Of a stretch of 64,000 nucleotides of DNA, positions 31,640-60,802 are shown piece by piece. This DNA comes from Gammaproteobacteria bacterium (GTDB lineage Bacteria; Pseudomonadota; Gammaproteobacteria; Arenicellales; UBA868). The DNA is taken from contig JAKUQS010000006.1 of assembly GCA_022451485.1 (NCBI GenBank), forward strand, positions 87,648 to 151,647, in the 5' to 3' direction. The position numbers and the translations under genes are program-made. The notes under the pieces were generated by a model. It saw nothing but the letters and a program-made list of their open reading frames with translations. It did no database searches and was not told the DNA's origin. Position 1 is the stretch's first letter. Every line of letters begins with the position of its first letter.

Positions 31640-32779
31640 ATGTACGATCTTCTTCTTCAATCCGGTCGAGTCATCGACCCCGCCAATCAACATGACGGGA
31701 TTATGGATATCGCAATCAAGGACGGCGCTATCGCTGCCGTCGGTGCCTCTATCGATGCGAGCGATGCCACAAACACGCAGGATCTTAGTGATTGTGTCCT
31801 TACACCGGGGCTGATTGACTTGCATACCCATGTTTACTGGGCGGGAACCTCAATCGGAGTTGAGCCTACGCTTTACGCTCATCAGGCCGGTACCACCACC
31901 TTAATCGATGCAGGGACCGCGGGTGCCGCGAACTTTCTTGGCTTTCGAAAACATGTGATTGAGCAGGCGCAGCCACGCATCCTGGCATTTCTCAACATCT
32001 CTTTTCCAGGTATTTACGCCTTCAGCGACTCTGTCATGGTCGGTGAGTGTTCTAATCTAGACTTACTCGAACCCAGGGAATGCCTGGCAATAGCCCGCGA
32101 ACATGCCGACCTCATCGTGGGAATCAAAGTACGGGTTGGACGCGGCGCCAGTGGAGAGCAAGGTATCGCGCCCCTTGATATCGCTTTAGAGGTCGCAGAT
32201 GAGTTAGGGATTCCGGTAATGTGCCATCTAGATCTGCCACCACCGAGTCGCCTAGATGTCGTCAGCCGCCTCAGACGAGGCGATATTCTTACCCACTGCT
32301 TTCGACCTTTTCCAAATTCACCCGCGCACTTACGCACCGCTACCGTACGAGAAGAGATCATTGCCGCCCGCGAACGCGGCGTAATTTTCGATATAGGACA
32401 CGGAAAAGGTTCCTTCGGCTACGCAACAGCCGAGGTCATGCTCCAATCCGGCTTTTCTCCAGACTGTATTTCCAGCGACGTTCACGTTCTAAGCATAGTA
32501 GGGCCTGCCCATGACCAGTTGGTGACCATGTCCAAGTTTCTAGCCCTTGGTATGTCCTTAAATCAGGTAATTACAGCGAGCACGAGTGAACCTGCGAAGG
32601 CCGTTGGGCATCCAGAATTGGGCCATCTGGGAGTGGGGACGCCGGCTGATATTAGTGTATTAAAACTCGAAGAAGGGGAATTCGAGTTTCTTGATGTTGA
32701 GGGAGAAACACGCACTGGCCAAACACAAATTCGCCCGCACCGTTTGATGGTCGGTGGAAAATGGTTAAAGGAGCCCTGA
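31640..32779 (+). CDS. Amidohydrolase/deacetylase-family metallohydrolase
   Basis: 379-residue amidohydrolase-superfamily enzyme related to dihydroorotases and D-aminoacylases. The metal site is visible: HxH at H62/H64 (GLIDLHTHVYW), likely carboxylated bridging K163 (VGIKVRVG), H196 (VMCHLDLP), H219 (LTHCF), and the catalytic Asp in SSDVHVLS. It should cleave an amide or cyclic ester/amide bond. The AGTTTLIDAGTAGAANF segment is typical of the EF_0837-type group, some of which hydrolyse acetyl-hydroxyacids. Divergent from the enolase-superfamily gene and convergent with the aminotransferase gene. Confidence 0.86.
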   Translation: MYDLLLQSGRVIDPANQHDGIMDIAIKDGAIAAVGASIDASDATNTQDLSDCVLTPGLIDLHTHVYWAGTSIGVEPTLYAHQAGTTTLIDAGTAGAANFLGFRKHVIEQAQPRILAFLNISFPGIYAFSDSVMVGECSNLDLLEPRECLAIAREHADLIVGIKVRVGRGASGEQGIAPLDIALEVADELGIPVMCHLDLPPPSRLDVVSRLRRGDILTHCFRPFPNSPAHLRTATVREEIIAARERGVIFDIGHGKGSFGYATAEVMLQSGFSPDCISSDVHVLSIVGPAHDQLVTMSKFLALGMSLNQVITASTSEPAKAVGHPELGHLGVGTPADISVLKLEEGEFEFLDVEGETRTGQTQIRPHRLMVGGKWLKEP

Positions 32780-34850: not shown

Positions 34851-36158
34851 TCAGGCGGCCGCTTCTAACGTGTCTCGATTGCGATAAATCGGGACAACGT
34901 ACGGTCCCTCGGGAATGACGGCCACCGCCGGATCTCGAAGTTCAGAAACACTAGTCATGACCGCGTCTGTGATAGACCCAATTCGCTCGACACCCGTGAG
35001 GTCGGTGTCTTCTGCTCGAAGACCCGTTGAGTAAAGGCTGATGGAACCTTGCGCCATCGCCTTGAGCTGCATTTGGGTCTGCCACTCATCTACTCGGGCA
35101 CGCGTTTGTTTTCCAATCATTTCCATGAAAGCGTCAGCACCCATTTGTAACAGACGTCCTTGGGATTCAATATACTCGGGAGATCCCAACCCTTCGGATA
35201 TCTCAGAAACGATAATTAACCGCCCCCCCTTACGCAGTGCTCCCAAAGCACCCACCATTCCCTTCACCGTTTGGTAATACGTCTTGTCCAGCGGATATCC
35301 GGCCGAGGTCGTGACCACAGTCGAATACTGTTGATCCATTTCAATCTCGCAATACTTTCGAACAAAATTGACTGCATCTGCGTGGCTTTCCTCTATCTCA
35401 CCAAAATTGATGTACGACAGGCGTCTCGACTCATCAATCACTGTATTAACTGCGAGCGCCCCACCCAGCATTTCGATGATTTCAAGCTGTTCTTCATGAA
35501 GTGGATTACCCTCCAACCGGCAATTTTCAACAAGCGGGTCACCCATAAACCGTGCATTATGAAACGTAGTAATCGTCTCGGCGTGGGCCAAGCCCGGGGC
35601 AATTACTTTTCGGCCCCCCGAATATCCAGCCATGAAATGGGGTTCAACCAATCCTGAAACAATACGAAGATCAGCTTCGACAAATACTTTATCGAGCCTT
35701 ACGGGTGTATTGCGCTTTTTGGTATACCCCACCAATACATGTTGCTGATCGTCCCTCGCATCATGATTAATGATTTCTACGTTTTCCTCGATCCAGGAAT
35801 CACCAATAACCTCGCTAAGTTCACTGCCAATATTCGGCCGGTGCAACCCCGTCGCTATCAATATTTTGATTTGATTTAACTCGACTCCTGCCTGCATCAA
35901 GGTTTCGACTAAGGGTCTAAGAAATGCTCCATTGGGGACTGGTCGAGTGATGTCACAAACCGCGATTGCCACCGATTTAGCATTCCTCGCGATGTTCACA
36001 AGCGACCTGCATGCAATTGGCTCTGCCAACGCATTCGAAACAGCCTGTTCGATATCGTCTAACACCGGCATCACTGGTTTTCGAATAATCGTGGGTACGA
36101 TCGGTTCTGGAAGATTAATCCCAATACCGTTTCGCCCATATTGCAGGTGTATATCCAT
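34851..36158 (-). CDS. larA: Nickel-dependent lactate racemase family enzyme LarA
   Basis: 435-residue LarA. Residues that hold the nickel-pincer nucleotide are at the family positions: H106 (GLHRPN), H174 (EPHFMAGYS), K184 (GGRK, covalent link to the cofactor) and H200 (TTFHN). The DITRPVP motif near residue 69 matches the substrate-binding DxTRP loop. LarA interconverts the two forms of a 2-hydroxyacid (lactate in Lactobacillus; other members use malate, aryl-lactates, hydroxyglutarate or sugar acids). It follows larB by 9 bases at the end of larC-larE-larB, so cofactor and enzyme are made together. Which hydroxyacid it uses is unknown. Confidence 0.93.
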   Translation of the reverse strand: MDIHLQYGRNGIGINLPEPIVPTIIRKPVMPVLDDIEQAVSNALAEPIACRSLVNIARNAKSVAIAVCDITRPVPNGAFLRPLVETLMQAGVELNQIKILIATGLHRPNIGSELSEVIGDSWIEENVEIINHDARDDQQHVLVGYTKKRNTPVRLDKVFVEADLRIVSGLVEPHFMAGYSGGRKVIAPGLAHAETITTFHNARFMGDPLVENCRLEGNPLHEEQLEIIEMLGGALAVNTVIDESRRLSYINFGEIEESHADAVNFVRKYCEIEMDQQYSTVVTTSAGYPLDKTYYQTVKGMVGALGALRKGGRLIIVSEISEGLGSPEYIESQGRLLQMGADAFMEMIGKQTRARVDEWQTQMQLKAMAQGSISLYSTGLRAEDTDLTGVERIGSITDAVMTSVSELRDPAVAVIPEGPYVVPIYRNRDTLEAAA

Positions 36159-36167
36159 TCGATACCT

Positions 36168-36845
36168 TTAATCGTTAACCGCTTCCATCAATACCGCAGC
36201 GCGTAACGCACGGAGCGCAATACAGGCAGCTCCAAACCCATTATCTATGTTGGTGACGGCAACTCCCGGCGCACAGCTAACGAGCATTGAAGTCAGGGCC
36301 GACTCCCCATTACGACTTACCCCGTATCCTGTCGACGAGGGCACTCCAATTAACAGCCCAGAAACCAACCCCCCCAGCACCGTTGGCAACGCCGCATCCA
36401 TTCCCGCGACCACGATAATCACCGGATAACGTGAAAGTTCCGGCACACGTTGTTGGAGTCGCCAAAGTCCCGCGACGCCAACATCATGGATCTCAGTGGA
36501 GTTAACTTGGTGGTAAAACAACGTGCGCATAGCCTCCCGCGCAACGGGCACATCGGACGTACCCGCACTAACAATCGCTATCTTTGGGGCATCAGAAACG
36601 GTCGCAATCTCGCCGAAAATTCCCGTGCGTGACACGGAATCATAATCTAGTAACTGTTGCCACTGCGCTGAAAGTTCACCAAAAACATTAGGCGCAAGCC
36701 TCGTCAGTAATAATGTACGATCACTCTCTCGAGCAGAGTTTAGGATTAGTTCAATCTGCGCAATGTTTTTTCCTGCACACAAGATACCTTCATCGATGCC
36801 CACTCGATTGACACGGTCATCGTCCAATAAAACTTCATTGCTCAT
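36168..36845 (-). CDS. larB: Nickel-pincer cofactor biosynthesis protein LarB
   Basis: 225-residue LarB, which carboxylates and hydrolyses nicotinic acid adenine dinucleotide to the dicarboxylated mononucleotide, the first step to the NPN cofactor. The C-terminal half resembles PurE, with IAIVSAGTSDVPVAREA, the conserved DVGVAGLWRL, and VAGMDAALPTVLGGLV. Its ATG overlaps the larE stop by 4 bases (ATGA) and its stop is 9 bases from larA. It is about 20 residues shorter than Lactobacillus LarB at the N terminus, with the catalytic domain whole. Confidence 0.93.
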   Translation of the reverse strand: MSNEVLLDDDRVNRVGIDEGILCAGKNIAQIELILNSARESDRTLLLTRLAPNVFGELSAQWQQLLDYDSVSRTGIFGEIATVSDAPKIAIVSAGTSDVPVAREAMRTLFYHQVNSTEIHDVGVAGLWRLQQRVPELSRYPVIIVVAGMDAALPTVLGGLVSGLLIGVPSSTGYGVSRNGESALTSMLVSCAPGVAVTNIDNGFGAACIALRALRAAVLMEAVND

Positions 36846-37645
36846 GACGACGCCCTGATAAACGCACTACCTTGCCGATATATTCCCAACCGAACGGGTC
36901 GATTGATGTCAATCTCATAGAAACAATCAGCCACCGTCGACTCGAGCTCACGTTGTTGTCGATCATCAATGGTTGCTAACGTCTCGTCATCCAGCTCAAT
37001 CACAATATCCTCTGCCCGAACTCGACACCGAACCGTGGACGGCTTTAAGCTCTTTTGCATTAACTGTTCAACGCGGTGAATTGTCGCAAGGGTTGGAGCG
37101 TGAATGGGCAGACCTGTCTCGACTCGACTGGAGAGACAAGGCGCAGATGGTAAGACAGACAGATCATTCAAGCCGAGACTTTTTGCAATAGTACGTATGG
37201 CGTCTTTATCAATCTCGCATTCAACAAAAGGGTGACGTACACCGTATTTGGCAGCAGCTTTGAGTCCCGGGCGAAAATCACCAAGATCGTCTGTATTCGT
37301 CCCCGACAGCACCTGTATCCCTGCCGTCGATACAATCGTCTCGTACAAGTTATGTTTACAAAAGTAACACCGGTTAGCGGGATTCGCGACGTAGGCTTGG
37401 TCTTTAAATTCACCTGCGTCGATGATCTCTAACTTCCAGCCACGAGCCTCGCCATAGCGTTGGACACGGTCCGTGGCTTCAAACGGAACTGCTGGAGAGA
37501 CGGCGTGGTAGACAACAATACTGGTTACTTCATGCGCAACACAAGCGAGCGTCATACTGTCCACACCGCCGCTTACAGCGATGGCTACAGCGTCGAATTC
37601 GGAGAGATGTTGCCTCAGTCGATTATTGAGATCAGATGTCTTCAT
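36842..37645 (-). CDS. larE: ATP-dependent sacrificial sulfur transferase LarE
   Basis: 267-residue PP-loop enzyme that adenylates the pyridinium dicarboxylate made by LarB and inserts sulfur. The PP-loop is VSGGVDSMT (residues 24-32). NRCYFCKHNLY holds the conserved CxxC, and APCLSSR holds the Cys matching the sulfur-donating cysteine of Lactobacillus LarE. In that species the Cys is sacrificed; other LarE types carry an extra iron-sulfur cluster, and the class here cannot be settled by eye. Overlaps larC by 14 bases and larB by 4, so translation is coupled. Confidence 0.93.
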   Translation of the reverse strand: MKTSDLNNRLRQHLSEFDAVAIAVSGGVDSMTLACVAHEVTSIVVYHAVSPAVPFEATDRVQRYGEARGWKLEIIDAGEFKDQAYVANPANRCYFCKHNLYETIVSTAGIQVLSGTNTDDLGDFRPGLKAAAKYGVRHPFVECEIDKDAIRTIAKSLGLNDLSVLPSAPCLSSRVETGLPIHAPTLATIHRVEQLMQKSLKPSTVRCRVRAEDIVIELDDETLATIDDRQQRELESTVADCFYEIDINRPVRLGIYRQGSAFIRASS

Positions 37646-38828
37646 TTTCTAGCTCGCGCCTCAGTTTTTCACGAGCCGAATGGCCTCCTTCAATATCCTT
37701 AATCTCATCTATCTCCAGTTTTCGACTCGTCGTCCCGCCAGGTCGCCTGGTCTCCTTTATACGAAAAGTTTGACCGTCTCTCGTTACGGAATGTGGATTT
37801 CGAATCAAAACCTGCCGGCGAACATTCGACACTCGAAGTCCCAACGTTGTTGTCTCGGAGAAACACGTCCCAACGACCGTTTTCTCTACCGAGGGATCAA
37901 ACAATACTCGAATATGGGTCATCATGCGCATCTTCTTGCCGTAAACAGTTGACTGCAAAACGTCATAAACCCCCTCCAACTGACGGAGGTGCCCCAGCGC
38001 AACCGCCAGGTCTTCGCTGGTTTGATCATCTATCTCGCACTCACACACGCCCACCATTTCCTCTTGCCAGTCAGATTCTTCTTGATCACCATAACCCAGA
38101 ACCCGGAGGATATTTGAGCGACCCTCTAATTCTCGCGTTCCAAAACCAGTTCCCGTACCGCTCAGTATGCGCACGCGACCGTCTCCTACAAATGTCGGGC
38201 TGAGATGGGCAAGGATCGCGGCTCCGGTGGGAGTGATTCGCTCGCCGCTGACACCGTCATCAACCAACGGCATCCCGGCGAGCAACAATGTGGTCGCAGG
38301 CGTCGGCACAGGTAACGGACCATGTGCAGTCATCACCTCTCCCGACCCTTTGGGTAACGCGGAACAAGACCACGTTACAGGCGACAATCGGTCAACCAAC
38401 CAACCCGCTACGACAACATCCGCAATAGAATCCCATGCGCCCACTTCGTGAAAGCTCACTTCATCGGTTGGTTTTCCGTGGACACGTCCTTCCGCATCGG
38501 CCAACCGTGAGAACACATCGATAGCACATGATCGTGCGCCCTCAGAAAGATCCATCGAAGTAATCATCTCCCTGATTTCCCGCCAGGCTCGGTGATGATG
38601 TGCAGGAGCACTGACCGGTGCCACTCCTACACGGGAACCTGTAAGCATGCCATCGCTATGATCATGTCGTTGGATATCGACCATCTCGGTCAAGCCACTA
38701 ATCAACAACATATTGTCGACTTCATCCTGAAGTGAAGGCACAAGATCAAGAATCGCAGCGATGAACATATCACCCGCTATGCCGCCAACGACATCCAAAT
38801 GAATATGATTGAAATACGGAGGACTCAT
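37632..38828 (-). CDS. larC: Nickel insertion protein LarC (single unbroken frame)
   Basis: 398-residue LarC, the CTP-dependent enzyme that puts nickel into the pincer nucleotide. The N-terminal HLDVVGGIAGDMFIAAILDL is diagnostic, and GAWDSIADVV, SALPKGSGEV and the C-terminal TTTLGLRVSNVRR follow. In Lactobacillus plantarum larC is split and joined by a programmed frameshift; here both parts are one continuous frame. It is the first gene of the lar operon. Upstream, 68 bases separate it from the end of a TauD-family gene on the same strand, so it may also be read from that transcript. Confidence 0.93.
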   Translation of the reverse strand: MSPPYFNHIHLDVVGGIAGDMFIAAILDLVPSLQDEVDNMLLISGLTEMVDIQRHDHSDGMLTGSRVGVAPVSAPAHHHRAWREIREMITSMDLSEGARSCAIDVFSRLADAEGRVHGKPTDEVSFHEVGAWDSIADVVVAGWLVDRLSPVTWSCSALPKGSGEVMTAHGPLPVPTPATTLLLAGMPLVDDGVSGERITPTGAAILAHLSPTFVGDGRVRILSGTGTGFGTRELEGRSNILRVLGYGDQEESDWQEEMVGVCECEIDDQTSEDLAVALGHLRQLEGVYDVLQSTVYGKKMRMMTHIRVLFDPSVEKTVVGTCFSETTTLGLRVSNVRRQVLIRNPHSVTRDGQTFRIKETRRPGGTTSRKLEIDEIKDIEGGHSAREKLRRELENEDI

Positions 38829-47239: not shown

Positions 47240-48967
47240 CTACTTTCGTAGAGAGTCACGAAGGTCGGCTGTCCCGGCCACATCAAGTTCTCCTGTTACC
47301 TGATCGACAACGACCCCGTGTTCCTCTCTCGCATAAACGGCCGAAATTTTTTCATTCCACACGTCTGCGGCAACTCGACTAGGTTCACGGGTCATTGGAT
47401 CGCCGAAGCCACCACCACCCGGTTGAACATGATGAATCAACTCGCCTTCGTACATTGTTCGATTCACCTTGCTAGGTAATGACTCGACCTCGCCATTCGG
47501 TTGCACAAGAGTGTTTATCGCGCCCAGTGCTTCAGTCCCTCCTTGCAATCCATAGGGCCGAAACCTCATTCGGTCTGCCCGTAACTGCAATCCGGCCTCT
47601 TTGGAAAGAACACGATAGGAGCGGGACAATCCCAACCCGCCGCGCCAACGTCCTGCCCCGCAAGTATTGGGTACTAGTGCGTATTCTTCTACTCGGACGG
47701 GATGTTGAGACTCAAGCGTCTCCACCGGCGTGTTGGAGAGATTCTGAGAAGGGTTAGTCACCCCTTCAATTCCGTCCTTATTCGGACGACCACCCCAAGC
47801 CCCACAGATCATGTCGACAATGATGAACGGCGATTTATCATCCCGATAACCACCGAGACAAACTACCGTGTTTCCACCTTCCCCGGCCGCTGGTATCCGA
47901 TCCGGAACGATTTGTGCCAGCGCGCCAAACATTGTGTCCACTACTCGGTAACCAGTTAACGCCCGCGCTGCGCACGCCGCAGGTAGCACTGGGTTGAGAA
48001 TCGACGCCTCAGGGGCTCGGACTGTAATCGCCCTAAACACGCCCGCGTTGTTCGGAATATCTCCCTTAAGGGCACAGCGCACGGACAGGTAGGTACATGA
48101 GTTGGTATACGATTTGGTTGAATTTAGCGCAGCTGACACCTGAGGAGCTGACCCGCTGTAGTCAACCAACACTCCATCCCCTGCTACCGTAATGGCAACT
48201 CGTATTGGCAAAGGTTCGTCTGAGAAACCATCGTCATCAATATGGTCCTCAAAAGTGTAAGTGCCATCCTTCCAGGTCGCTATCTCCTCTCGAGTCATAC
48301 GCTCAGCGTAATCAAGCAACGCCAAAAAATACCCCTGAAGATCACCGACACCGTAACGATTTGCTAGCTTGACAAGCTCAAGGGATCCGGCTCGGCACGC
48401 CGCATATTGTGCTTTCAAATCTCCTATGACTCTATCGGGCAATCGCACATTCAACTCGATGAGCCGCATCAATGTGCGGTTGGGAACTCCGCCTTCAAAC
48501 AGCTTCAATGGCGCAATGCGAAGGCCTTCTTGAAATATTTCGGTCGAATCACTTGCATTTGAACCCGGCACACGCCCACCCACATCGGTGTGGTGGCAAA
48601 TTACCACCGCAAACGCCAGCAACTCATCCCCGGAGAACAAGGGCATAAACATAAAGATGTCAGGAAGATGCATTCCGCCTTGATAGGGATCATTTAAGAC
48701 GACGGCATCCCCCTCTCTCAAATTCCCTTTATATCTCTCCAACACTACCTGCATCGCCTCGGGTACAGCCCCGAGATGAAGTGCAATGGTTTTAGCCTGA
48801 GCAATCATTCGCCCTTCGCTATCGCAAATCGCTGCAGAGTAATCCATCACATCTTTGACAATTTCGGAGCGGGCAGTCCGTAACACGGTATACGCCATCT
48901 CATCGACGATCGCGTCCAATCCATGCTTAATTACCGCGAAGGTCACTGGGTCAACGTTTACAGTCAT
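47240..48967 (-). CDS. Hydantoinase B / N-methylhydantoinase B-type subunit (pair 3)
   Basis: 575-residue HyuB, about 95 residues shorter than the other two because it lacks their C-terminal extension; this is the usual length for N-methylhydantoinase B-type proteins. Motifs: DPVTFAVIKHGLDAIVDEMAY, VICHHTDVGGRVPGS, EIFQEGLRIAPL and PGGGGFGDPMTREP. Its ATG overlaps the HyuA stop by 4 bases (ATGA). It should open the ring or amide phosphorylated by HyuA. The second liv importer starts 275 bases downstream on the same strand. Confidence 0.91.
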   Translation of the reverse strand: MTVNVDPVTFAVIKHGLDAIVDEMAYTVLRTARSEIVKDVMDYSAAICDSEGRMIAQAKTIALHLGAVPEAMQVVLERYKGNLREGDAVVLNDPYQGGMHLPDIFMFMPLFSGDELLAFAVVICHHTDVGGRVPGSNASDSTEIFQEGLRIAPLKLFEGGVPNRTLMRLIELNVRLPDRVIGDLKAQYAACRAGSLELVKLANRYGVGDLQGYFLALLDYAERMTREEIATWKDGTYTFEDHIDDDGFSDEPLPIRVAITVAGDGVLVDYSGSAPQVSAALNSTKSYTNSCTYLSVRCALKGDIPNNAGVFRAITVRAPEASILNPVLPAACAARALTGYRVVDTMFGALAQIVPDRIPAAGEGGNTVVCLGGYRDDKSPFIIVDMICGAWGGRPNKDGIEGVTNPSQNLSNTPVETLESQHPVRVEEYALVPNTCGAGRWRGGLGLSRSYRVLSKEAGLQLRADRMRFRPYGLQGGTEALGAINTLVQPNGEVESLPSKVNRTMYEGELIHHVQPGGGGFGDPMTREPSRVAADVWNEKISAVYAREEHGVVVDQVTGELDVAGTADLRDSLRK

Positions 48968-51084
48968 GGGGTATCACCGACCAGTTCAGAAGGCACCGAA
49001 ATAACGACGCTACCACATTTGTCAGTCACCGCTCCGCATCCGGGCGGGACTACAATCGTAGTGTCATAGGATTCCAATATAGCCGGGCCTCGCACTTCAG
49101 TCCTTTCAATTGCCGATCGGGGATAGACGACCGTAGATATGAGCTCTCTAGTGGAGTCAAACCATACGTTTCGAAACGACTCAGGCACCTCCCCAGAAGT
49201 CACCCCGGATTGCCCTTCCGCAAACGCCACACGATGTCGTCGGATTCCGAAAGCACTCAACCGAATATTAACGAGCTCGACGGGTTCATTATTCTGATAC
49301 CCATATGTCTCTAAATAAGCCGCATGAAATGCCTTGGAGAGGCTTCCTAAGCCACCCTGTTCAATATCTTCCGGATTAAACGCAACATTTAACTCGGATG
49401 ATTGGCCGAAATAATGCAGGTCCGCGCTAAACTGCAGTTGTCGATCTACCTCACCAAACCCATCTTTTTGCAACCGTTCAGTACCACTCTCGCGCAGTCG
49501 TTCGATTACATCCATCAGATCCGACGCTTTGATTCGTTCTAACGGCCGGAATAGATTCTCTACAAAATTGTGTTCAACGTCGGCTCCCAGCATCCCTACC
49601 GCTGAAAACACTCCCGACATCACAGGAATGATTACTTTTGAAATACCAAGTAGCGCCGCGACATCAACTGCATGTGCTGGACCGGACCCTCCAAAGGCAA
49701 ACAGTGTCATATGACGTGGGTCGCGACCCCGCTCAATCGTCACTGAACGTATCGCGCGTGCCATCGCTACGTTGACAATCTGCCGAATACCCGCCGCCGC
49801 TTCGATGAGGCTTAAGTCCAACGGCTCAGCGATATGCCGGCGAATGGCCGTTGTTGCACTAACGGCATTAATCAAAACGCTTCCGCCCGCAAGGCTATCC
49901 TGATTCAGAATACCTAAGGCGACGTTAGCATCCGTTACGGTAGGACGTTCATTACCCAGTCCATAGCATACTGGTCCAGGCTCCGCGCCTGCCGAAATCG
50001 GACCGACCTGCAATAAACCACCCTCGTCTATCCACGCGATAGAGCCACCTCCTGCGCCAACCTCGGCAATATCGATGGCTGGGACCTTCAACATATATCC
50101 GCCGCCCTTTATAAAGCGGCTGGGTGTGGACATACCATCTCGAAATTCATATTCCGAGGTAATTGTCACGTCCCCGCTTTCTATGATGGAGGCTTTAGCG
50201 GTGGTGCCTCCCATATCGAAGGCAATAGCATCCAAGCAATCAATCTCACGTCCAAGCCGCATCGACCCAATCACCCCTCCGGCCGGGCCTGAGCCAACGG
50301 CGAAAACTGGCTTTTCCATGGCGGTTTCTATTTTCATCATGCCACCCGATGACGCAATCACCAGAATCGGCGCATCCATCCCGGCATCGGCTAGTTCTAT
50401 CGCCAATGACTCCAGATAGCGTTGCATACCTGGCAAGAGATACGCATTAACCACCGTCGTAGAAGTCCGTTCATATTCCTTAATTTCCGGTAATACGTCG
50501 CAGGATGCTGTAACCCGTAATTGAGGGAAAGCGCTCCGCAAAAGCGCCTGGGCCCGACGCTCATGTTCGGAATTGATACAGGAGTGGAGAAAACACACGG
50601 CCGCAGTCTCAACGCCTTCCTTCACGAGACGACTACCCGCAGCGATCACGCTTTCTTCATCTAGCGGAACGACAACCTCACCATTCGCGGCCATTCGTTC
50701 AGCAACCTCGACCCGGTAACGTCTCGGCACCAGCGGGCTGGGTTTATCCCAGGCAACATCAAACATGGTCGGCGTTCGAATGCGACCAATTTCTAAAACG
50801 TCTCGAAAGCCTGTTGTTGTAATAAGTCCAGTTTTACCACCCCGTTTCTGAAGAATGATGTTTGAACCGACAGTCGTTCCATGCACAACTTCCGTAATAT
50901 CCGAAAATGCCAGACCTAGGTCATCGAGCAGTTGCCGCAATCCCGTTACAACAGCAGCTCCGGGCAATGCCGGGGTGCTTGGGACCTTTCTGACATGTGC
51001 CTGCCCATCACTAACCTGTGCAACCAGATCAGTAAACGTGCCTCCGATATCACAGGCTATTTGAACAGTATATTTCCCGACCAT
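48964..51084 (-). CDS. Hydantoinase A / N-methylhydantoinase A-type subunit (pair 3)
   Basis: 706-residue ATP-binding subunit. The phosphate loop is IACDIGGTFTDL (about residues 8-19); EVVHGTTVGSNIILQKRGG, AFDMGGTTAKASI and AEVGAGGGSIAWIDE are all HyuA-type. It is overlapped by hyuB and starts 19 bases after the end of an EamA exporter gene, which may therefore be part of the same unit. An acetone carboxylase is unlikely because no gamma subunit is encoded nearby. Confidence 0.91.
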   Translation of the reverse strand: MVGKYTVQIACDIGGTFTDLVAQVSDGQAHVRKVPSTPALPGAAVVTGLRQLLDDLGLAFSDITEVVHGTTVGSNIILQKRGGKTGLITTTGFRDVLEIGRIRTPTMFDVAWDKPSPLVPRRYRVEVAERMAANGEVVVPLDEESVIAAGSRLVKEGVETAAVCFLHSCINSEHERRAQALLRSAFPQLRVTASCDVLPEIKEYERTSTTVVNAYLLPGMQRYLESLAIELADAGMDAPILVIASSGGMMKIETAMEKPVFAVGSGPAGGVIGSMRLGREIDCLDAIAFDMGGTTAKASIIESGDVTITSEYEFRDGMSTPSRFIKGGGYMLKVPAIDIAEVGAGGGSIAWIDEGGLLQVGPISAGAEPGPVCYGLGNERPTVTDANVALGILNQDSLAGGSVLINAVSATTAIRRHIAEPLDLSLIEAAAGIRQIVNVAMARAIRSVTIERGRDPRHMTLFAFGGSGPAHAVDVAALLGISKVIIPVMSGVFSAVGMLGADVEHNFVENLFRPLERIKASDLMDVIERLRESGTERLQKDGFGEVDRQLQFSADLHYFGQSSELNVAFNPEDIEQGGLGSLSKAFHAAYLETYGYQNNEPVELVNIRLSAFGIRRHRVAFAEGQSGVTSGEVPESFRNVWFDSTRELISTVVYPRSAIERTEVRGPAILESYDTTIVVPPGCGAVTDKCGSVVISVPSELVGDTP

Positions 51085-51103: not shown

Positions 51104-51991
51104 CTAACCACCAACCATCGCAATCACGACAACACCCGCCGTAACCATAAAAACGCCGGCCACCAATCGCCGGGACACTCGCTCTGCTCCCAAGATCCAC
51201 ACCGACAGCAAAGTAAATACCGGGTACGACGCGATAATAGGAGAAATTACCACTACGCGACCTATCATTAAGGCTCCGTACATACTGATAATAGCGAAGG
51301 CGATGAACAAACCGGAATAAAAGAAATGCTTAATACCATTAGTCGGGACGCTCCGAGGTAACTCGCCATAACGCACTCGAATAAATATCGTCATACATAC
51401 CATACCCACAGAAAATGCGACAAAAGTTGCCATAAATGGGTTGGGTAACAACTCTAAGCCCCATTTGCCAATTACGTGCGTCGATCCTCTGATTACCGCC
51501 GCGATACTGGCGAAAATCAGCGCAACGCGCATAATCCGGGCTAGTCGGTGACCATCAAAGGTTAAAACGATCACGCCGGCCACGATTGCGATCGTCGCTA
51601 ACCCGACCCCAATCGTAAGATTCTCTTGCAAGAACAGCACCGCGCCAAGCGTTGAAAAGAATGGGGCGGTAGCGGCGAGCGTCGAGGCAACGGTCGTACC
51701 GGCACGCTTTAATGCCTCAAGAGAGGCGTACATAGATAGATATGGGTGAATAAGACCCGCTAACGCAAATATCCAGAAACCCGCGGTAAACCAGTCTTCA
51801 GATCGCATCCATAGCGGACCCAGTAATAAGCACACCAACCAGGTTGTCGCCATCGTAATGAGACACCCAGTTTCCGCGTTAACAAACTGGAGACCACGTT
51901 TGGCCGGAAGCGCAGAAATTCCGAATAAAACCGCGGCCAGGACTCCCAACAGCGGCGCGCTGACATTACTCGATAAATTTAGGAGATTCAT
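51104..51991 (-). CDS. EamA/DMT-family membrane transporter
   Basis: 295-residue protein with about ten hydrophobic segments in two halves, first helix VLAAVLFGISALPAKRG. ATG 51991 gives a normal EamA N terminus; the frame is open for 10 more codons from a weak start. Third EamA gene in the window, and like the one at 8756 it is next to a hydantoinase pair. Probably exports an amino acid or waste metabolite made by the neighbouring enzymes; the substrate is unknown. Confidence 0.85.
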   Translation of the reverse strand: MNLLNLSSNVSAPLLGVLAAVLFGISALPAKRGLQFVNAETGCLITMATTWLVCLLLGPLWMRSEDWFTAGFWIFALAGLIHPYLSMYASLEALKRAGTTVASTLAATAPFFSTLGAVLFLQENLTIGVGLATIAIVAGVIVLTFDGHRLARIMRVALIFASIAAVIRGSTHVIGKWGLELLPNPFMATFVAFSVGMVCMTIFIRVRYGELPRSVPTNGIKHFFYSGLFIAFAIISMYGALMIGRVVVISPIIASYPVFTLLSVWILGAERVSRRLVAGVFMVTAGVVVIAMVGG

Positions 51992-52113
51992 GTCTACATC
52001 ACCCACCGCAGGGCAAGACAAACAAGAATCAAACCTGAATCAAAACGACGACACATTGAGACCCGTGTGGCCTTGCGCAACCACAAAGTGGGGATCAGAC
52101 CAATGATTCAGAC

Positions 52114-52737
52114 TTACCCGGAATAGATCTGAATCTGGACCGGGGTAGGCTCACCACCGGCGGCATTATTAAGCCGTTCCGGACAGTTAGATAAGACAGC
52201 CAGTACATCTTGATCAGCCATCAGACTTACATAATCACCCGCCTTGGAAAGGCCAGGAGATATACCCAGCGCACCGGACGCTTCAACGGGAACGTACATA
52301 AAAAAATTTATATTGGCAGCAACATCTTTCTCGTTGAGGCCGTGCTTCGATAGCTCCAACTCAAAGTTCCCCTGACAACCTTTGCCATTATTCTCCCCAA
52401 AGCGAACATCATCCACCTCTACAGAGCAACATCCGTAAATCGTATCGTGGGAACCGCACGTATCCTCAACAACGGTCATCAGTTTATTTGCTTTAACGGA
52501 CCACAGCCCAGCACCCTTACCGAGATAAATATTGCCATTCAATTTGATGGTATTGGCAGCGTTGTAACGGTCGGAACTGTCGTGTTCGTTATAACAAAGA
52601 AAATCAATAGCCTGTTGTCCATTCAGATCTATTAGGCGAAGAATTTCTCCGGACTTAATCACACCACTCCAGGGTTCACCCACTGGAACAACCGTATCTT
52701 CCCTAATAGCGCGGCCCGCAACCGCATTGTCATTCAT
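52114..52737 (-). CDS. DUF1989 / urea carboxylase-associated family protein
   Basis: 207-residue member of DUF1989 (urea carboxylase-associated) with VVPVGEPWSGVIKSGEILRLIDLNGQQAIDFLCYN near the start, here in family order, then GLWSVKANKLMTVVEDTCGSHDT and NINFFMYVPV. Known members CgdA and CgdB form carboxyguanidine deiminase with guanidine carboxylase. No carboxylase gene or second DUF1989 copy is near, so this is an orphan member whose substrate may be another amidine or carbamate. It follows the LarA-like gene by 15 bases. Confidence 0.88.
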   Translation of the reverse strand: MNDNAVAGRAIREDTVVPVGEPWSGVIKSGEILRLIDLNGQQAIDFLCYNEHDSSDRYNAANTIKLNGNIYLGKGAGLWSVKANKLMTVVEDTCGSHDTIYGCCSVEVDDVRFGENNGKGCQGNFELELSKHGLNEKDVAANINFFMYVPVEASGALGISPGLSKAGDYVSLMADQDVLAVLSNCPERLNNAAGGEPTPVQIQIYSG

Positions 52738-52752
52738 GTTTGACTGAACCCC

Positions 52753-54027
52753 TTAAACCTGTAGTTCCGTGACATCGGGAAGGTTCCCGGCGTTATCCAG
52801 AGGAAGTGGCCGTGGTTCACTGAGTATCTCGATTTCATTGCTTTGGCGTGCCTCATTCAGATACGCCACGGAACATTCCAGTTCAGACACCTCCAAAGTG
52901 TTATGAATCCACATCACCTTAGTATCTGGAACTGCCGTTAATCCCATTTCTGGCAATGTCGCTTCCAACACTTCCTTATCTGTTTGGTAATGCAAGGGGA
53001 TCATCGCGCCGGTCGGACTACCGCCAGTAATACAATTACGGCGTGTAATAGCGACATCCATCGCATCTACTGCCCTAGTTAAGGCAAATTCCGCCATACC
53101 AATGCCAGTCGCGTTACCATGTGTTTCCTCAGTCAGGCCACGTAGAAAAATGGTTCGTACTTTTGGCCACTCATCATCCCCCGCTCGGTGTTCCAGAAAC
53201 TTTCTTCCAACCACATTCGAATCCATTCCAGAGCCGCTAATATTCTTACCAATTTGGTCTACTACCAGCAGATCTGCCTGCTTGAAAGGCAAACGCGGCA
53301 TCCATTGCTTCGCAAGGACAAGCAATTCTTTTTCCCGCTCTTCAAATTCATTAGGCCCAACAGCCGTTATCCTGGCAGTTTCGTCATAACCATTCTCAAC
53401 AATGGCCAACCCTGCAACAATACGGCACTTCGACAAAACCTCTTTAGCTACGCTACGCACAATCTGTCCAAAACTGTGGTCTTTAATGGCTCGATGGTAA
53501 GTCTTGGCTCCCTCGTACTTACCTAAACCAATTAACATCATCTTCATTAGGCCGCTTTCAATATCTCCAACAAAAGTGGTGTGAGGTTTGACTCGGCCGC
53601 AAACGACGACGTGATCCGCTCCGTAGGCATTTTTATCAAAATGAACCGGAAATCCTTCCTTAGCATCGCAGACAATCACCGTCTCCATGCTTGAACGAAT
53701 AGGACACCCCACATAGTCCTCCGTTATCCCATAACCCTCAACGATGCCCTGCTGACCCTCGGCCGTCGCACCGCCGTGACTACCCATTGCCGGGACCACA
53801 AATGGCTCGGCACCCAATCCTTTCAAGTGATCAACAATCGACTTGATAATGATATGAATATTCGCGATACCACGACTGCCAGCTGTAATAGCGACAGATT
53901 GTCCAGGCTGAATAGTCGTATCCAAATTCAATCGTGACAATTCAGATGCAACCTCACTCGGGATATCCTCTACCACCGGACGATCGAACTTTTGACGAAT
54001 ACGAAAGATTTCAGGATATTCGGACAT
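52753..54027 (-). CDS. LarA-family (DUF2088) enzyme, second and diverged copy
   Basis: 424-residue LarA homologue. All four cofactor-site residues can be aligned by motif: H84 (GSHGG), H149 (VKPHTTF), K162 (SGLMKMM) and H178 (TYHRA). Distances H-to-H (65) and K-to-H (16) match the larA product at 34851 (68 and 16); the H-to-K gap is 13 against 10. The DxTRP loop is replaced by TAGSRG, pointing to another substrate. It needs the nickel-pincer cofactor, which only larBCE at 36168-38828 could supply in this window. GAGAGG lies 7 bases upstream of ATG 54027. Probably a racemase or epimerase of a 2-hydroxyacid other than that of the first LarA. Confidence 0.88.
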   Translation of the reverse strand: MSEYPEIFRIRQKFDRPVVEDIPSEVASELSRLNLDTTIQPGQSVAITAGSRGIANIHIIIKSIVDHLKGLGAEPFVVPAMGSHGGATAEGQQGIVEGYGITEDYVGCPIRSSMETVIVCDAKEGFPVHFDKNAYGADHVVVCGRVKPHTTFVGDIESGLMKMMLIGLGKYEGAKTYHRAIKDHSFGQIVRSVAKEVLSKCRIVAGLAIVENGYDETARITAVGPNEFEEREKELLVLAKQWMPRLPFKQADLLVVDQIGKNISGSGMDSNVVGRKFLEHRAGDDEWPKVRTIFLRGLTEETHGNATGIGMAEFALTRAVDAMDVAITRRNCITGGSPTGAMIPLHYQTDKEVLEATLPEMGLTAVPDTKVMWIHNTLEVSELECSVAYLNEARQSNEIEILSEPRPLPLDNAGNLPDVTELQV

Positions 54028-54146: not shown

Positions 54147-54953
54147 TCATTCACTGGTACATTTCAGTGTCATTCCACCATCCACCACGATCTCGGCACC
54201 GGTAACATAACGTGCTTCATCAGAAGCCAAAAACACAACCGCGTTCGCTACGTCCCAAGCTGTTCCCATAAAACCCATTGGTATTCGGGCATTACGCTTC
54301 GAGATTAGCGCCTCAACATCGCCTCCAGTTTGCTGACCGGCGAGGTAAGCATGGACCATAGGTGTGTCCATTTGGCCAGGAATTACGGTATTACAGCGAA
54401 TCCCGCGGGAGGCAAATTCGAGCGCGACCGATTGGCTAAACCGGGAAATCGCCGCCTTAGCAGTTTGATAGGCGATCTGTTGCTGACCCGTAAAAGTCAA
54501 ACCCGAAGTTGATCCGATATTGATAATCGACCCGCCCTTGAAGCGGAGCATTTGTGCAATAACCTTACGTGTAACAAGGAAGACATGTTTCAGGTTGACG
54601 TTCATTTGGTCATCCCAGGCAGCTTCGTCTAACTCCATAATCCCTCCGGCTAACGCTGCACCTACATTGTTATACAACACGTCGACTTGACCGAATTCCT
54701 GACAACATTGGTTCACCATGGCATCCACAGACTCGGGGTCCGTCACATCCGCTTCATAAGCCAAACAACGTCCCCCCTCATTCTCAATAATCGTTTGTGT
54801 AACTCGCGCCGAGTTTAAATTTCTATCCACGGCAAAGACTTTCCCACCTTCGCGAGCAAAGAGCACCGCACTAGCTTTACCATTACCCCATCCAGACCCA
54901 ATTGATCCGGCACCGCTCACTAGAACAACTTTTCCCTCCATTCTTTTTCCCAT
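54147..54953 (-). CDS. Short-chain dehydrogenase/reductase
   Basis: 268-residue classical SDR with VSGAGSIGSGWGNG cofactor loop (a stretched TGxxxGxG), ADVTD near residue 68, NNVG at 95-98, catalytic Ser in INIGSTSG and Y162/K166 in AYQTAK. ATG 54953 has AGGAG 7 bases upstream. An NAD(P)-dependent alcohol dehydrogenase or keto reductase. It lies 119 bases before the LarA-like gene on the same strand, so oxidation of the hydroxyacid that LarA epimerises is one possible role (inference). Divergent from the MFS gene at 55081. Confidence 0.88.
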   Translation of the reverse strand: MGKRMEGKVVLVSGAGSIGSGWGNGKASAVLFAREGGKVFAVDRNLNSARVTQTIIENEGGRCLAYEADVTDPESVDAMVNQCCQEFGQVDVLYNNVGAALAGGIMELDEAAWDDQMNVNLKHVFLVTRKVIAQMLRFKGGSIINIGSTSGLTFTGQQQIAYQTAKAAISRFSQSVALEFASRGIRCNTVIPGQMDTPMVHAYLAGQQTGGDVEALISKRNARIPMGFMGTAWDVANAVVFLASDEARYVTGAEIVVDGGMTLKCTSE

Positions 54954-54960
54954 GGCAATT

Positions 54961-54965
54961 CTCCT
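54961..54965 (-). promoter_or_regulatory. RBS deciding the SDR start
   Basis: AGGAG on the minus strand, 7 bases before ATG 54953. Confidence 0.75.
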
Positions 54966-55080
54966 ATTCGATATTTGCAAATCGTTTCGTATATAGTGGG
55001 CCGAGCTACCGGAACCTCAATCCGAGTGAGCTCCGTGCCACCGTTGTAATCAGCACCTGTTTCGGATCACCGTACCCCTT

Positions 55081-56340
55081 ATGTCACACAAGCAGTTCTA
55101 CGGATACCATATCGTTACCGCGAGTAGCGTAATACAGTTAATGTATCTGGGCGGCGTGTTTACCTACGGCGTTTTGTTCCGACACCTAGAGGCTGAGTTT
55201 GCTTGGCTGCCCGGTAATCCGCATCCGCTTCCGGTGGCAGCGTTGATATCAGGCGCCGGTTCCATGATGTTCTTTTTTATGGGAACACTGAGCGCCGTAA
55301 TGGGTTTTCTTAGTGATCGACTGGGACCGAGGATAGTGATGACTGCTACCACCGCCTCGTTTGGCATCGGCTTTCTACTACTCTCGACGATATCCGCACC
55401 ATGGCAGCTTTACCTGTACTACGGGCTTTTGTGTGGCATCGGTATGGGGGCGCACGACGTTGTCCTTCTGTCTACAGTAGCCCGCTGGTTCACGAAATAT
55501 CGTGGCATCATGGCTGGGATCGTCAAAGCCGGCGCGGGTGTTGGACAAGTGCTTGTGCCCGTTGGCGCGGCATATTTAATCACGCGCTACGACTGGCGTG
55601 ATGCGGTGCTTATCATAGGCATTACCCTCTTGATCGGCATGGTACTAACATCCCAATTTCTTCGCCGGGATCCACGGATGTATTCCCAGCTGCCACTCGG
55701 GGAAGAAAACGATTCAGACACAGCACTGCCAAGTGAAACTGGGGCGACCGTTCGACAGGCCCTAGGACATTATCAATTTTGGTTGCTCTGCTTAGCTAAG
55801 TTGGCTGATTTCTACTGTGTTACAACCATCATGGTTCATATCGTTCGCTACGGCCAACTTGAAGGCCTGAGCCCTGGGGTCGCGGCCATATTGATTGCCT
55901 GTGTCGGAGGATTCAGCATCATCGGGCGCCTCGCGTTTGGCCTGTTATTCGACCGCCTCGGAACCCGTCTCTCTTTAAATATTTGCTTTAGTCTTCTGCT
56001 TTTTAGCGTTATGTTGCTGCACCAGATAGAGCGCCCTGAACTTCTTTTTGTCTTCACATTTTTTTACGGTATCCCCCATGGGGGCTTTTTCGTGATTGCC
56101 TCACCCAGTATCGCCGAATACTTTGGCACGCGCTCACACGGGTCTATTCTTGGTCTTGTATTCTTTGTTGGTACGGTGGGTGCTGTCGGCGGACCCATCG
56201 TCACCGGTTGGACCTATGATGTTACGCAAAGCTACGACGTCAGCATACTGTTACTCATCGGTTTAGCAGCTGTGGGGTTATTGCTCACGCTGTTTCTACG
56301 CCCTATCAAATCGAACTGGTCGACTACCGCTTCACCGTAA
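55081..56340 (+). CDS. MFS transporter (monocarboxylate / OFA-like)
   Basis: 419-residue major facilitator with 12 hydrophobic segments. GFLSDRLGPRIVMTATT (motif A) follows helix 2, and its counterpart FGLLFDRLGTRLSLNI lies in the second half; AGIVKAGAGVGQVLVPVGAAYLI is typical of the MCT/oxalate-formate group, so a carboxylic acid is a likely cargo. It is the first + strand gene in a long minus-strand stretch. Divergent from the SDR, convergent with the epimerase 23 bases later. Confidence 0.86.
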   Translation: MSHKQFYGYHIVTASSVIQLMYLGGVFTYGVLFRHLEAEFAWLPGNPHPLPVAALISGAGSMMFFFMGTLSAVMGFLSDRLGPRIVMTATTASFGIGFLLLSTISAPWQLYLYYGLLCGIGMGAHDVVLLSTVARWFTKYRGIMAGIVKAGAGVGQVLVPVGAAYLITRYDWRDAVLIIGITLLIGMVLTSQFLRRDPRMYSQLPLGEENDSDTALPSETGATVRQALGHYQFWLLCLAKLADFYCVTTIMVHIVRYGQLEGLSPGVAAILIACVGGFSIIGRLAFGLLFDRLGTRLSLNICFSLLLFSVMLLHQIERPELLFVFTFFYGIPHGGFFVIASPSIAEYFGTRSHGSILGLVFFVGTVGAVGGPIVTGWTYDVTQSYDVSILLLIGLAAVGLLLTLFLRPIKSNWSTTASP

Positions 56341-57323: not shown

Positions 57324-58322
57324 TCAATATTGCAGTCGCCGACTTACTCTATTGTGTAACGGTTTACCTTGAATTAGTCGTCGCGCGTTTTCAAAAACCA
57401 AATCCAGCGTACGCGGGGTGTAATAACTCTCATCATCTGAGGAACAATGCGGCGTAATCAATAGATTTGACGCCTCCCACAGCAGAGAGTGCTTCGGCAA
57501 CGGTTCCGGCGTAAACACATCCAGGACCGCGCTTAGTTCTCCCTTATTAAGCCGAACTCGCAACGCTTCGTAGTCCACTAAACCGGCGCGGCTGTAGTTC
57601 ACCAATCCGGCACCCGCTTTCATCAAATCCAACTCGCCTGCCCCCATGAGCTGATCTGTTTCAGTGGTATGCGGCGCACTAATCAACACAAAATCGGCTC
57701 TCGGTAAAATAGTCTGCAACTCAGCGGCCGTATACATTTCATCTACCCAACGACGTGGTTTACCAGAACGCCGTATTCCAAGCACGTTTAAACCGACCGA
57801 CTTTGCCCAGCGGGCAACGGCGTGACCAATGTGTCCCACTCCTATAATCAAAAGTGTCTTTCCTGACAGAGAACTGCTGAAACACTGCGCCCAGCGTCCC
57901 CTGCGTTGATTAGTCACCATCTCGGGCAGCCGATTATTCAGCGCCAAAATTGCCATCATGACGTATTCGGTTGCCCTTTCACCGTGTACGCCCCGACTGT
58001 TTGTCAAAGTGATCTGTTTTGGCAGATCCTGTAAAGGCATCCAATGGTTGATCCCAGCGCCGTGTACGTGAATCCAGCGTAAATGCGGGGCTCGTTCGGA
58101 GAGCCGTTCACGCGGCAAGTCCCAACAAAACACTGCATCTGCGCTCTGAAGATGTTCATCAAGTCCACGTCCGTCATAACCGACGGTTACGCGGACTCGA
58201 TCAACCAAGTCCGGTGCTCGATTTAAAGCCGCCGTCACCCTATCACTAGATGCTTCAAAAACCGGGCCAAGAGTACTGGTGTTTTCCACATGCAAATGTA
58301 GCGACCTCGATTCCTGATCCAT
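57324..58322 (-). CDS. D-2-hydroxyacid dehydrogenase, NAD-binding
   Basis: 332-residue enzyme of the D-isomer 2-hydroxyacid dehydrogenase family. The N-terminal catalytic part is followed by the Rossmann loop GVGHIGHAVARW (near residue 160), the substrate Arg in NYSRAGLVD, Glu in VFTPEPLP and the catalytic His in ITPHCSSDD. It oxidises a D-2-hydroxyacid or reduces the 2-ketoacid. ATG 58322 has GGAGG 5 bases upstream. A natural partner for LarA-type racemases, which could supply D-isomers from L; that link is inference. Divergent from the Rieske oxygenase. Confidence 0.9.
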   Translation of the reverse strand: MDQESRSLHLHVENTSTLGPVFEASSDRVTAALNRAPDLVDRVRVTVGYDGRGLDEHLQSADAVFCWDLPRERLSERAPHLRWIHVHGAGINHWMPLQDLPKQITLTNSRGVHGERATEYVMMAILALNNRLPEMVTNQRRGRWAQCFSSSLSGKTLLIIGVGHIGHAVARWAKSVGLNVLGIRRSGKPRRWVDEMYTAAELQTILPRADFVLISAPHTTETDQLMGAGELDLMKAGAGLVNYSRAGLVDYEALRVRLNKGELSAVLDVFTPEPLPKHSLLWEASNLLITPHCSSDDESYYTPRTLDLVFENARRLIQGKPLHNRVSRRLQY

Positions 58323-58327
58323 TTCTT

Positions 58328-58332
58328 CCTCC
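58328..58332 (-). promoter_or_regulatory. RBS deciding the D-2-hydroxyacid dehydrogenase start
   Basis: GGAGG on the minus strand, 5 bases before ATG 58322. It rules out the TTG four codons upstream, with which it overlaps. Confidence 0.75.
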
Positions 58333-58417
58333 AAGTTTTCGTGTTTTTTGTTTCACCCCTCTTGTTGTAACATTAATTATCGGAAACACCCACACCATTA
58401 CCCAGAACAACCTGCAA

Positions 58418-59560: not shown

Positions 59561-60802
59561 TTAGGATACGTATCTCTCTCGGTAGGCTGCGACAGCTTGT
59601 TGAAAACACTCCACCGGAGCTGTCAAGACCCCTGCCCCGATTTGGCCTCCATCTTTCCCAGCAACTCCGATATCCATTACCGGGCTCTGTCCGCTTTCAA
59701 CGACACGAAAAATGTCAATTCCAGTCGGTGTTCCACGGTAGGAAAAATATGGAATTCGATACTCTGGATGTTCCCCCAATGTGATCTGATACATAGCGAG
59801 ATTCATCTGAATCATGTGGTCGACACTCCCACCCTGATATTCTTGTAAAGGAAAAGCCGCAGCCTGAGCGAAGCCCCCCAACCCTGCAGTTTCATTGATG
59901 GTGCTTTCACCTCCCATAAACTCAATTTCACTGTCATCGTGATTAGGAAACAGTTTCGCTGCGACCGGCGGCAATTTGGCAGAAAACCAATCATCGCCAA
60001 GGCCACTGACTCGAATCGAAAAATCGTGGCAATTAAATGCCATGGCGGTCACCATACTTGATCCTTCTACTCCATGAGCGGAATCACTCGCCGCCTTCGA
60101 CGCTGCCATAGACAAGCGCAAGAAGAAGTAGTCACCTCCACTAAGATATTCATACAATTTATTAGCTGAAGTCTCGGCGGCCTTGGTCTCTTTCATCAAA
60201 GCTGGAAAAACTTTTTGATTAAATAAAAGGGTAGCCGCCGTATTTCTGCTGTGTAACTCATCTCCCATATGTAAAGCACGCTTGATAATGGGACTTAACT
60301 CCACACCACCGGACGCTCTGATTACCCGACCCAATATTGGCGCAATCTCGTCCTGCAAATAAATCAAATTGTCCCTGACCTTTTGATTGTAAACACCATA
60401 ATTCAAGCGAAACGGTGATTTACCCTCGAATAAGTTGCAGAAACTTCGATTGCCCGATACCGGATTATCAACAACAAACACCGGCATCGATGCCGTGTAG
60501 ATACCGGCAAGCGATCCCACACAACCATAATCATGGCAGCCAGCGACAACAATTTCACCACTACGGATTTTCTCTTCAGCAGCCAACGGATTCGACGCTA
60601 AGCCCTCATACTCCGCAGCTCCTAGCACCGCGGCCCGCTGTCCCCCGTAATACCGTTCCCATGGCATGGACGCGCCGGAAGTTAATATGATATTCCGAGC
60701 CATTCCCGGCACGACATCAATTGCCGGCTGAACATCGATGACGACAGGTGCGGCGCCACTGATCTTGGCAAAAGCTTTCCTGTTGGCGGATTCTCTCATC
60801 AC
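59561..60802 (-). CDS. DUF1116 protein, YlbE/AllG-like (oxamate carbamoyltransferase subunit family)
   Basis: 413-residue DUF1116 protein: QPAIDVVPGMARNIILTSGA, CHDYGCVGSLAGI, MPVFVVDN, GNRSFCNLFEG and HMGDELHSRNTAATLLF are family segments. E. coli AllG works with AllF (FdrA) and AllH as oxamate carbamoyltransferase at the end of allantoin breakdown. Neither AllF nor AllH is encoded in the window, so a stand-alone or different partner must be assumed. GTG 60802 has AGGAG 8 bases upstream; ATG follows one codon later. It lies 36 bases after the glutamine-synthetase-like gene on the same strand. Confidence 0.83.
   Translation of the reverse strand: MMRESANRKAFAKISGAAPVVIDVQPAIDVVPGMARNIILTSGASMPWERYYGGQRAAVLGAAEYEGLASNPLAAEEKIRSGEIVVAGCHDYGCVGSLAGIYTASMPVFVVDNPVSGNRSFCNLFEGKSPFRLNYGVYNQKVRDNLIYLQDEIAPILGRVIRASGGVELSPIIKRALHMGDELHSRNTAATLLFNQKVFPALMKETKAAETSANKLYEYLSGGDYFFLRLSMAASKAASDSAHGVEGSSMVTAMAFNCHDFSIRVSGLGDDWFSAKLPPVAAKLFPNHDDSEIEFMGGESTINETAGLGGFAQAAAFPLQEYQGGSVDHMIQMNLAMYQITLGEHPEYRIPYFSYRGTPTGIDIFRVVESGQSPVMDIGVAGKDGGQIGAGVLTAPVECFQQAVAAYRERYVS

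Follow-up and report, generated by a model that had tools for sequence, protein, structure and literature searches.

The larA22 locus and its family assignment

The window, i.e. the whole stretch of 64,000 nucleotides of gammaproteobacterial DNA that was analysed, contains two genes encoding homologues of LarA: one of the classical type next to larB, larE and larC, and a diverged one, here called larA22 (Table 1). The larA22 open reading frame is intact, with no internal stop in its 424 codons. In the window, the SDR, larA22, DUF1989, EamA and hydantoinase A/B genes all lie on one strand, an arrangement that three genomes of the genus preserve. The AllG-type protein and the hydantoinase subunits around larA22 hint at a nearby pathway for the breakdown of ureides or cyclic amides, and an amidohydrolase of the EF_0837/PRK09237 type is encoded at 31640-32779, close to the first larA cluster.

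Table 1. Features of the window around the two larA homologues (positions are those of the window)
Feature	Position	Strand	Remarks
First LarA homologue, classical type	34851..36158	-	Has both Lar_N and LarA_C; among solved structures closest to 9EIA/9EID (I. pallida LarA)
larB, biosynthesis of the nickel-pincer nucleotide (NPN)	36168..36845	-	NF033503, 234 bits; only LarB over the cut-off in the genome
larE, sulfur transferase of NPN biosynthesis	36842..37645	-	TIGR00268, 233 bits; only LarE over the cut-off in the genome
larC, nickel insertion	37632..38828	-	TIGR00299, 178 bits; NF052512, 95 bits; only LarC in the genome
Hydantoinase A/B subunits	47240-51084		Flank the larA22 region
EamA-type transporter	51104..52021	-	Same run of genes as larA22
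DUF1989 protein	52114..52737	-	Follows larA22 after a gap of 15 bp; conservation limited to the genus
larA22, group-22 LarA homologue	52753..54027	-	NF052515, 424 aa; C-terminal domain diverged from LarA_C
SDR dehydrogenase	54147..54980	-	Precedes larA22 with a gap of 119 bp; same gene order throughout the genus members compared
MFS transporter	55081..56340	+	Nearest L-lactate/oxalate-formate family models, under their cut-offs
D-2-hydroxyacid dehydrogenase family protein	57324..58334	-	Family recurs beside larA22 in several lineages
AllG-type protein (oxamate carbamoyltransferase subunit)	59561-60802		Flanks the larA22 region

In profile searches, the larA22 protein matches over its full length the NCBIfam model NF052515, "nickel pincer cofactor-dependent isomerase, group 22", with 510.3 bits (E 3e-153; curated full-length cut-off 400 bits), and the Pfam model Lar_N weakly, with 36 bits, yet above its cut-off of 23.3. 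The same searches returned no match to the classical lactate racemase model NF033504 or to LarA_C (PF21113), and the classical LarA, malate racemase and LarAH10 models either scored far under their cut-offs or did not match. As these equivalog models fail by far, an identity as lactate or malate racemase was dropped. The publications consulted on LarA homologues report an activity for no group-22 member, and those pairing lactate racemase with Haloferax or with erythronate hold nothing on group 22. The larA22 product is an ordinary member of an already named, biochemically uncharacterised family, an assignment that is well supported.

Predicted fold and active-site residues

An AlphaFold (AF2) model of the larA22 protein, computed from an input of 76 sequences, has a pLDDT of 93.9; a single-sequence model of the first LarA reached a pLDDT of only 34 and was not used. 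The larA22 model superimposes on the structures of LarA, Mar2, the T. maritima protein 4NAR and the single-His LarAs with Z scores of 18.6-20.2 over 303-329 residues, against a Z of 6 for the next unrelated fold, and Foldseek relates it to the LarA and Mar2 structures with E values of ~1e-12. The modelled protein has the two-domain LarA fold. When the PDB sequences were searched with the larA22 protein, by phmmer and by profile, LarA did not emerge at a significant level; therefore, the residue mapping rests on structure and on profile-profile comparison.

The original prediction had paired H84, H149, K162 and H178 of this protein with H106, H174, K184 and H200 of the first LarA, at near-equal spacings (65/13/16 against 68/10/16). 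The profile-profile alignment by hhalign (E 1.3e-6; residues 11-256 against 25-281 of the first LarA) agrees with each of these pairs, and the spacings are as stated there. It also aligns R52, in the motif AGSRGI, with R72 of the first LarA, equivalent to R75 of L. plantarum LarA. All five residues (R52, H84, H149, K162 and H178) are invariant in 106 of 106 group-22 sequences, which come from Pseudomonadota, Planctomycetota, Latescibacterota, Poribacteria, one Rubrobacter plasmid and haloarchaeal plasmids. Together with the NF052515, Lar_N and Foldseek scores, this invariance shows that the resemblance is no coincidence. Published assignments for LarA make the first two His the acid/base pair and give NPN binding to the Arg, the Lys and the last His, with the Arg in contact with the substrate carboxylate as well (PMC7583248; PMC11851776).

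The proposal that the DxTRP motif has been replaced holds for its Asp but not for its Arg, which is retained as R52. Nor does the reading of this motif as a substrate loop agree with the literature, in which the Arg is a ligand of NPN and of the carboxylate and the Asp is catalytic rather than part of a specificity loop; Asp72 is listed among the catalytic residues of LarA, Mar2 and GntE2 (PMC7583248). The equivalent of this Asp is absent from group 22, where the column holds A, V, G or C in all 106 sequences. Furthermore, at the two positions directly behind the second His, where LarA has a bulky pair that touches the substrate side chain, the larA22 protein has T150-T151. The suggestion that the two LarA homologues of the window act on different substrates fits the loss of both the LarA_C signature and this hydrophobic loop.

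Global hhalign comparison of the C-terminal domains of larA22 and LarA gave no alignment, so that no equivalent of LarA Lys298 is claimed; K261, which is invariant in the 106 sequences, may be regarded only as a candidate. The loss of the Asp and a C-terminal half that profiles fail to align, as if the domain had been rebuilt, could mean that the protein binds NPN and carries out some other hydride-transfer reaction, such as a one-way epimerisation or a hydride shift, instead of a reversible racemisation at C2, and the literature does expect different reactions where catalytic residues are missing. We consider this improbable: both catalytic His are invariant, unlike in the single-His subfamily, and conserved polar residues of the group-22 C-terminal domain (K261, D269, N305 and N331) may stand in for what was lost.

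Cofactor genes and the probable use of NPN by group 22

In the host genome (92.7% complete), larB, larC and larE each have a single representative over the cut-off, and all three lie at 36168-38828 of the window; the end of larC is 13.9 kb from larA22, and that of the first larA 16.6 kb. This singularity supports the original prediction that one larBCE set serves both LarA homologues; the group-22 protein would share its cofactor with the first LarA. A single larC together with 2-9 Lar_N matches is common among the genomes compared, and one larBCE set for several LarA homologues is an ordinary arrangement.

Among genomes encoding group 22, LarB was found in 50 of 50, LarC in 47 of 50 and LarE in 24 of the 25 tested. 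Group 22 is rare in the phylum (2 of 299 genomes; LarC in 48 of the 299). In one family of the same class, of which 201 genomes were sampled, LarC occurs in 19 genomes and a Lar_N match in the same 19. Group 22 is present in eight genomes of this family and is the sole Lar_N match in six of them; all eight encode LarC, compared with 11 of the 193 genomes without group 22 (Fisher 1.3e-9, a nominal value as the genomes are related and represent five genera). In each of the eight, larBCE lies within ~10 kb of larA22, in operons of two types, and the six genomes that combine linked larBCE with group 22 as sole Lar_N match are near-complete. In the control genome of Haloferax volcanii, group 22 and LarC are present and a Lar_N match is absent. 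Another genome (G353) has, in a larBEC operon at L112:6237-7625 (-), a LarA homologue in which neither the NPN lysine nor the second catalytic His is present (VSATYVGGYSGTGAVTG); of the two Lar_N proteins of this genome, only the group-22 one, encoded elsewhere, therefore has an intact cofactor Lys.

It could be argued that group 22 is a LarA-fold family that no longer uses NPN and works cofactor-free or with another cofactor, since larBCE genes are absent from the surroundings of larA22 in its closest relatives within the family (80 loci, mostly from Planctomycetota), and larA22 of the window has no cofactor genes of its own. This is very improbable in view of the six near-complete genomes, of the invariant K162 and H178 and of the occurrence of LarB in all 50 group-22 genomes tested. 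The predicted dependence on NPN is well supported by group membership, invariant cofactor residues, fold and the larBCE operons beside group 22 as sole LarA, and the latter genomes, together with the Roseobacter plasmids described below, make the use of NPN by group 22 very likely.

The larA22 product is a group-22 LarA homologue that very probably takes NPN from the single LarB/LarC/LarE set of the genome and inverts C2 of a 2-hydroxy acid. In such an enzyme, NPN would be tethered through K162, H178 would ligate the nickel, and R52 would hold the cofactor and/or the substrate carboxylate. With H84 and H149 alternating as acid and base, a hydride would pass from the substrate to NPN and then return to the opposite face of the 2-oxo intermediate; the inverted product may feed a D-2-hydroxyacid dehydrogenase or similar enzyme.

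Gene neighbourhoods and candidate substrates

The type I operon comprises genes for a HupE/UreJ-family protein, an RraA-like protein, an IlvD/Edd dehydratase, an HpcH/HpaI aldolase, LarB, LarE, LarC and a GntR regulator, and a divergent part with larA22, a D-2-hydroxyacid dehydrogenase, a TAXI-TRAP transporter, a TPP enzyme, an FAD-linked oxidase and an SDR. Its HupE/UreJ-family gene counts in favour of the reading given above. In the type II operon, larA22 is accompanied by a D-2-hydroxyacid dehydrogenase, a PdxA-family protein (344 bits against the D-threonate 4-phosphate dehydrogenase model, under its cut-off of 583), a kinase of the D-threonate kinase type (182 bits against that model, under its cut-off of 450), a DapA-family protein, larC, larB and larE. 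On plasmids of the Roseobacter genera Sulfitobacter and Pseudosulfitobacter, larA22 stands between an altronate dehydratase gene (uxaA) and larC, which it abuts. In Rubrobacter and haloarchaea, a four-carbon acid sugar kinase is encoded near larA22 together with PdxA, as are dehydratases of the UxaA type and members of the glycerate-kinase family (DUF4147) and of the enolase superfamily. Acid-sugar genes (DUF1537-type kinase, PdxA, IlvD/Edd, UxaA and glycerate-kinase family) thus adjoin larA22 in many lineages, and no context is shared by the neighbourhoods of the 80 homologues, mostly from Planctomycetota, Latescibacterota and Poribacteria. In six Latescibacterota/Gemmatimonadota loci (L042, L045, L047, L048, L049 and L050), a dehydrogenase gene, whose product resembles the iron-dependent alcohol dehydrogenase type, lies directly upstream of larA22, and a dihydroorotase-like gene directly downstream.

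Acid-sugar kinase, PdxA and aldonate dehydratases as neighbours indicate polar sugar-acid substrates, and we give about an even chance to small polar 2-hydroxy acids (acid sugars) as the substrate class of group 22. D-erythronate and D-threonate are C2 epimers; therefore, it would be reasonable for an epimerase to precede PdxA and a kinase of four-carbon acid sugars. The 4-deoxy analogues of these acids are substrates of other LarA homologues (PMC11770544). A tentative and more specific possibility is that group 22 epimerises acid sugars, those with four carbons among them, at C2 with the help of NPN, as a LarA variant without the catalytic Asp. Such an enzyme would interconvert, for example, D-erythronate and D-threonate before a DUF1537-type kinase and a PdxA-type dehydrogenase act on them.

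Against the main reading, group 22 lacks the Asp72 equivalent, its C-terminal domain escapes profile alignment, and the window neighbours (SDR, DUF1989 and hydantoinase subunits) form no obvious sugar-acid pathway. Taken for the window alone, the proximity of a D-2-hydroxyacid dehydrogenase gene to larA22 says little, because the host genome has 24 matches to this domain, some of them not full genes. A narrower form of that reading would tie larA22 to the adjacent SDR and DUF1989 proteins in one pathway. The linkage originally noted between these genes stands within the genus, where the three same-strand genes keep their order; outside it, DUF1989 is near none of the 80 homologues and an SDR near only four, at <= ~36% identity. 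Since operon-like neighbours can also be incidental, a common pathway seems rather unlikely. Within the genus, larA22 is 95% identical, compared with 81-82% for the SDR and 92% for DUF1989, and this better conservation argues for a function of larA22.

Origin and significance of larA22

A tree of 69 sequences places the larA22 protein within those of planctomycetes (SH-aLRT 97); it is 74% identical to its nearest planctomycete relatives and only 39-40% to the group-22 proteins of its own order. This points to a likely horizontal transfer of the gene.

Group 22 is a group of the LarA superfamily for which the publications consulted report no substrate. Where it is the sole LarA homologue of a genome and has its own larBCE and acid-sugar genes alongside, it offers a clear host and a short list of substrates, and a way to learn if an enzyme of this kind can do without the Asp of the classical catalytic set.

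Comparison with known systems

The larA22 protein belongs to the NF052515 family (for the grouping of the LarA superfamily, see Desguin et al. 2020, PMC7583248) and has the same residues, with no difference found. With the LarAs of L. plantarum (5HUQ/6C1W) and I. pallida (9EIA) it has in common the fold (Z ~19-20), the Arg, the two catalytic His, the NPN Lys and the Ni-ligating His, at 13-16% identity over the structural alignment; it differs from them in the loss of Asp72, in T150-T151 at the position of F175/F176 and in leaving the LarA_C model unmatched. GntE2, the D-gluconate 2-epimerase of T. maritima, which is probably the protein of structure 4NAR, resembles it in fold (Z 19.1), in sugar-acid context and in that the second His is followed by small or polar residues, whereas sequence searches do not recognise the relationship and GntE2 keeps Asp72 (PMC7583248). 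Finally, the single-His subfamily of LarA_Bw and LarA_Sp (9Q3J, 9Q3K; PMC12611868) has the fold, the NPN Lys, the Ni-ligating His and a carbohydrate-metabolism context in common with larA22, but an Asn replaces its second His, while group 22 has His at this position (H149) and never Asn in all 106 sequences.
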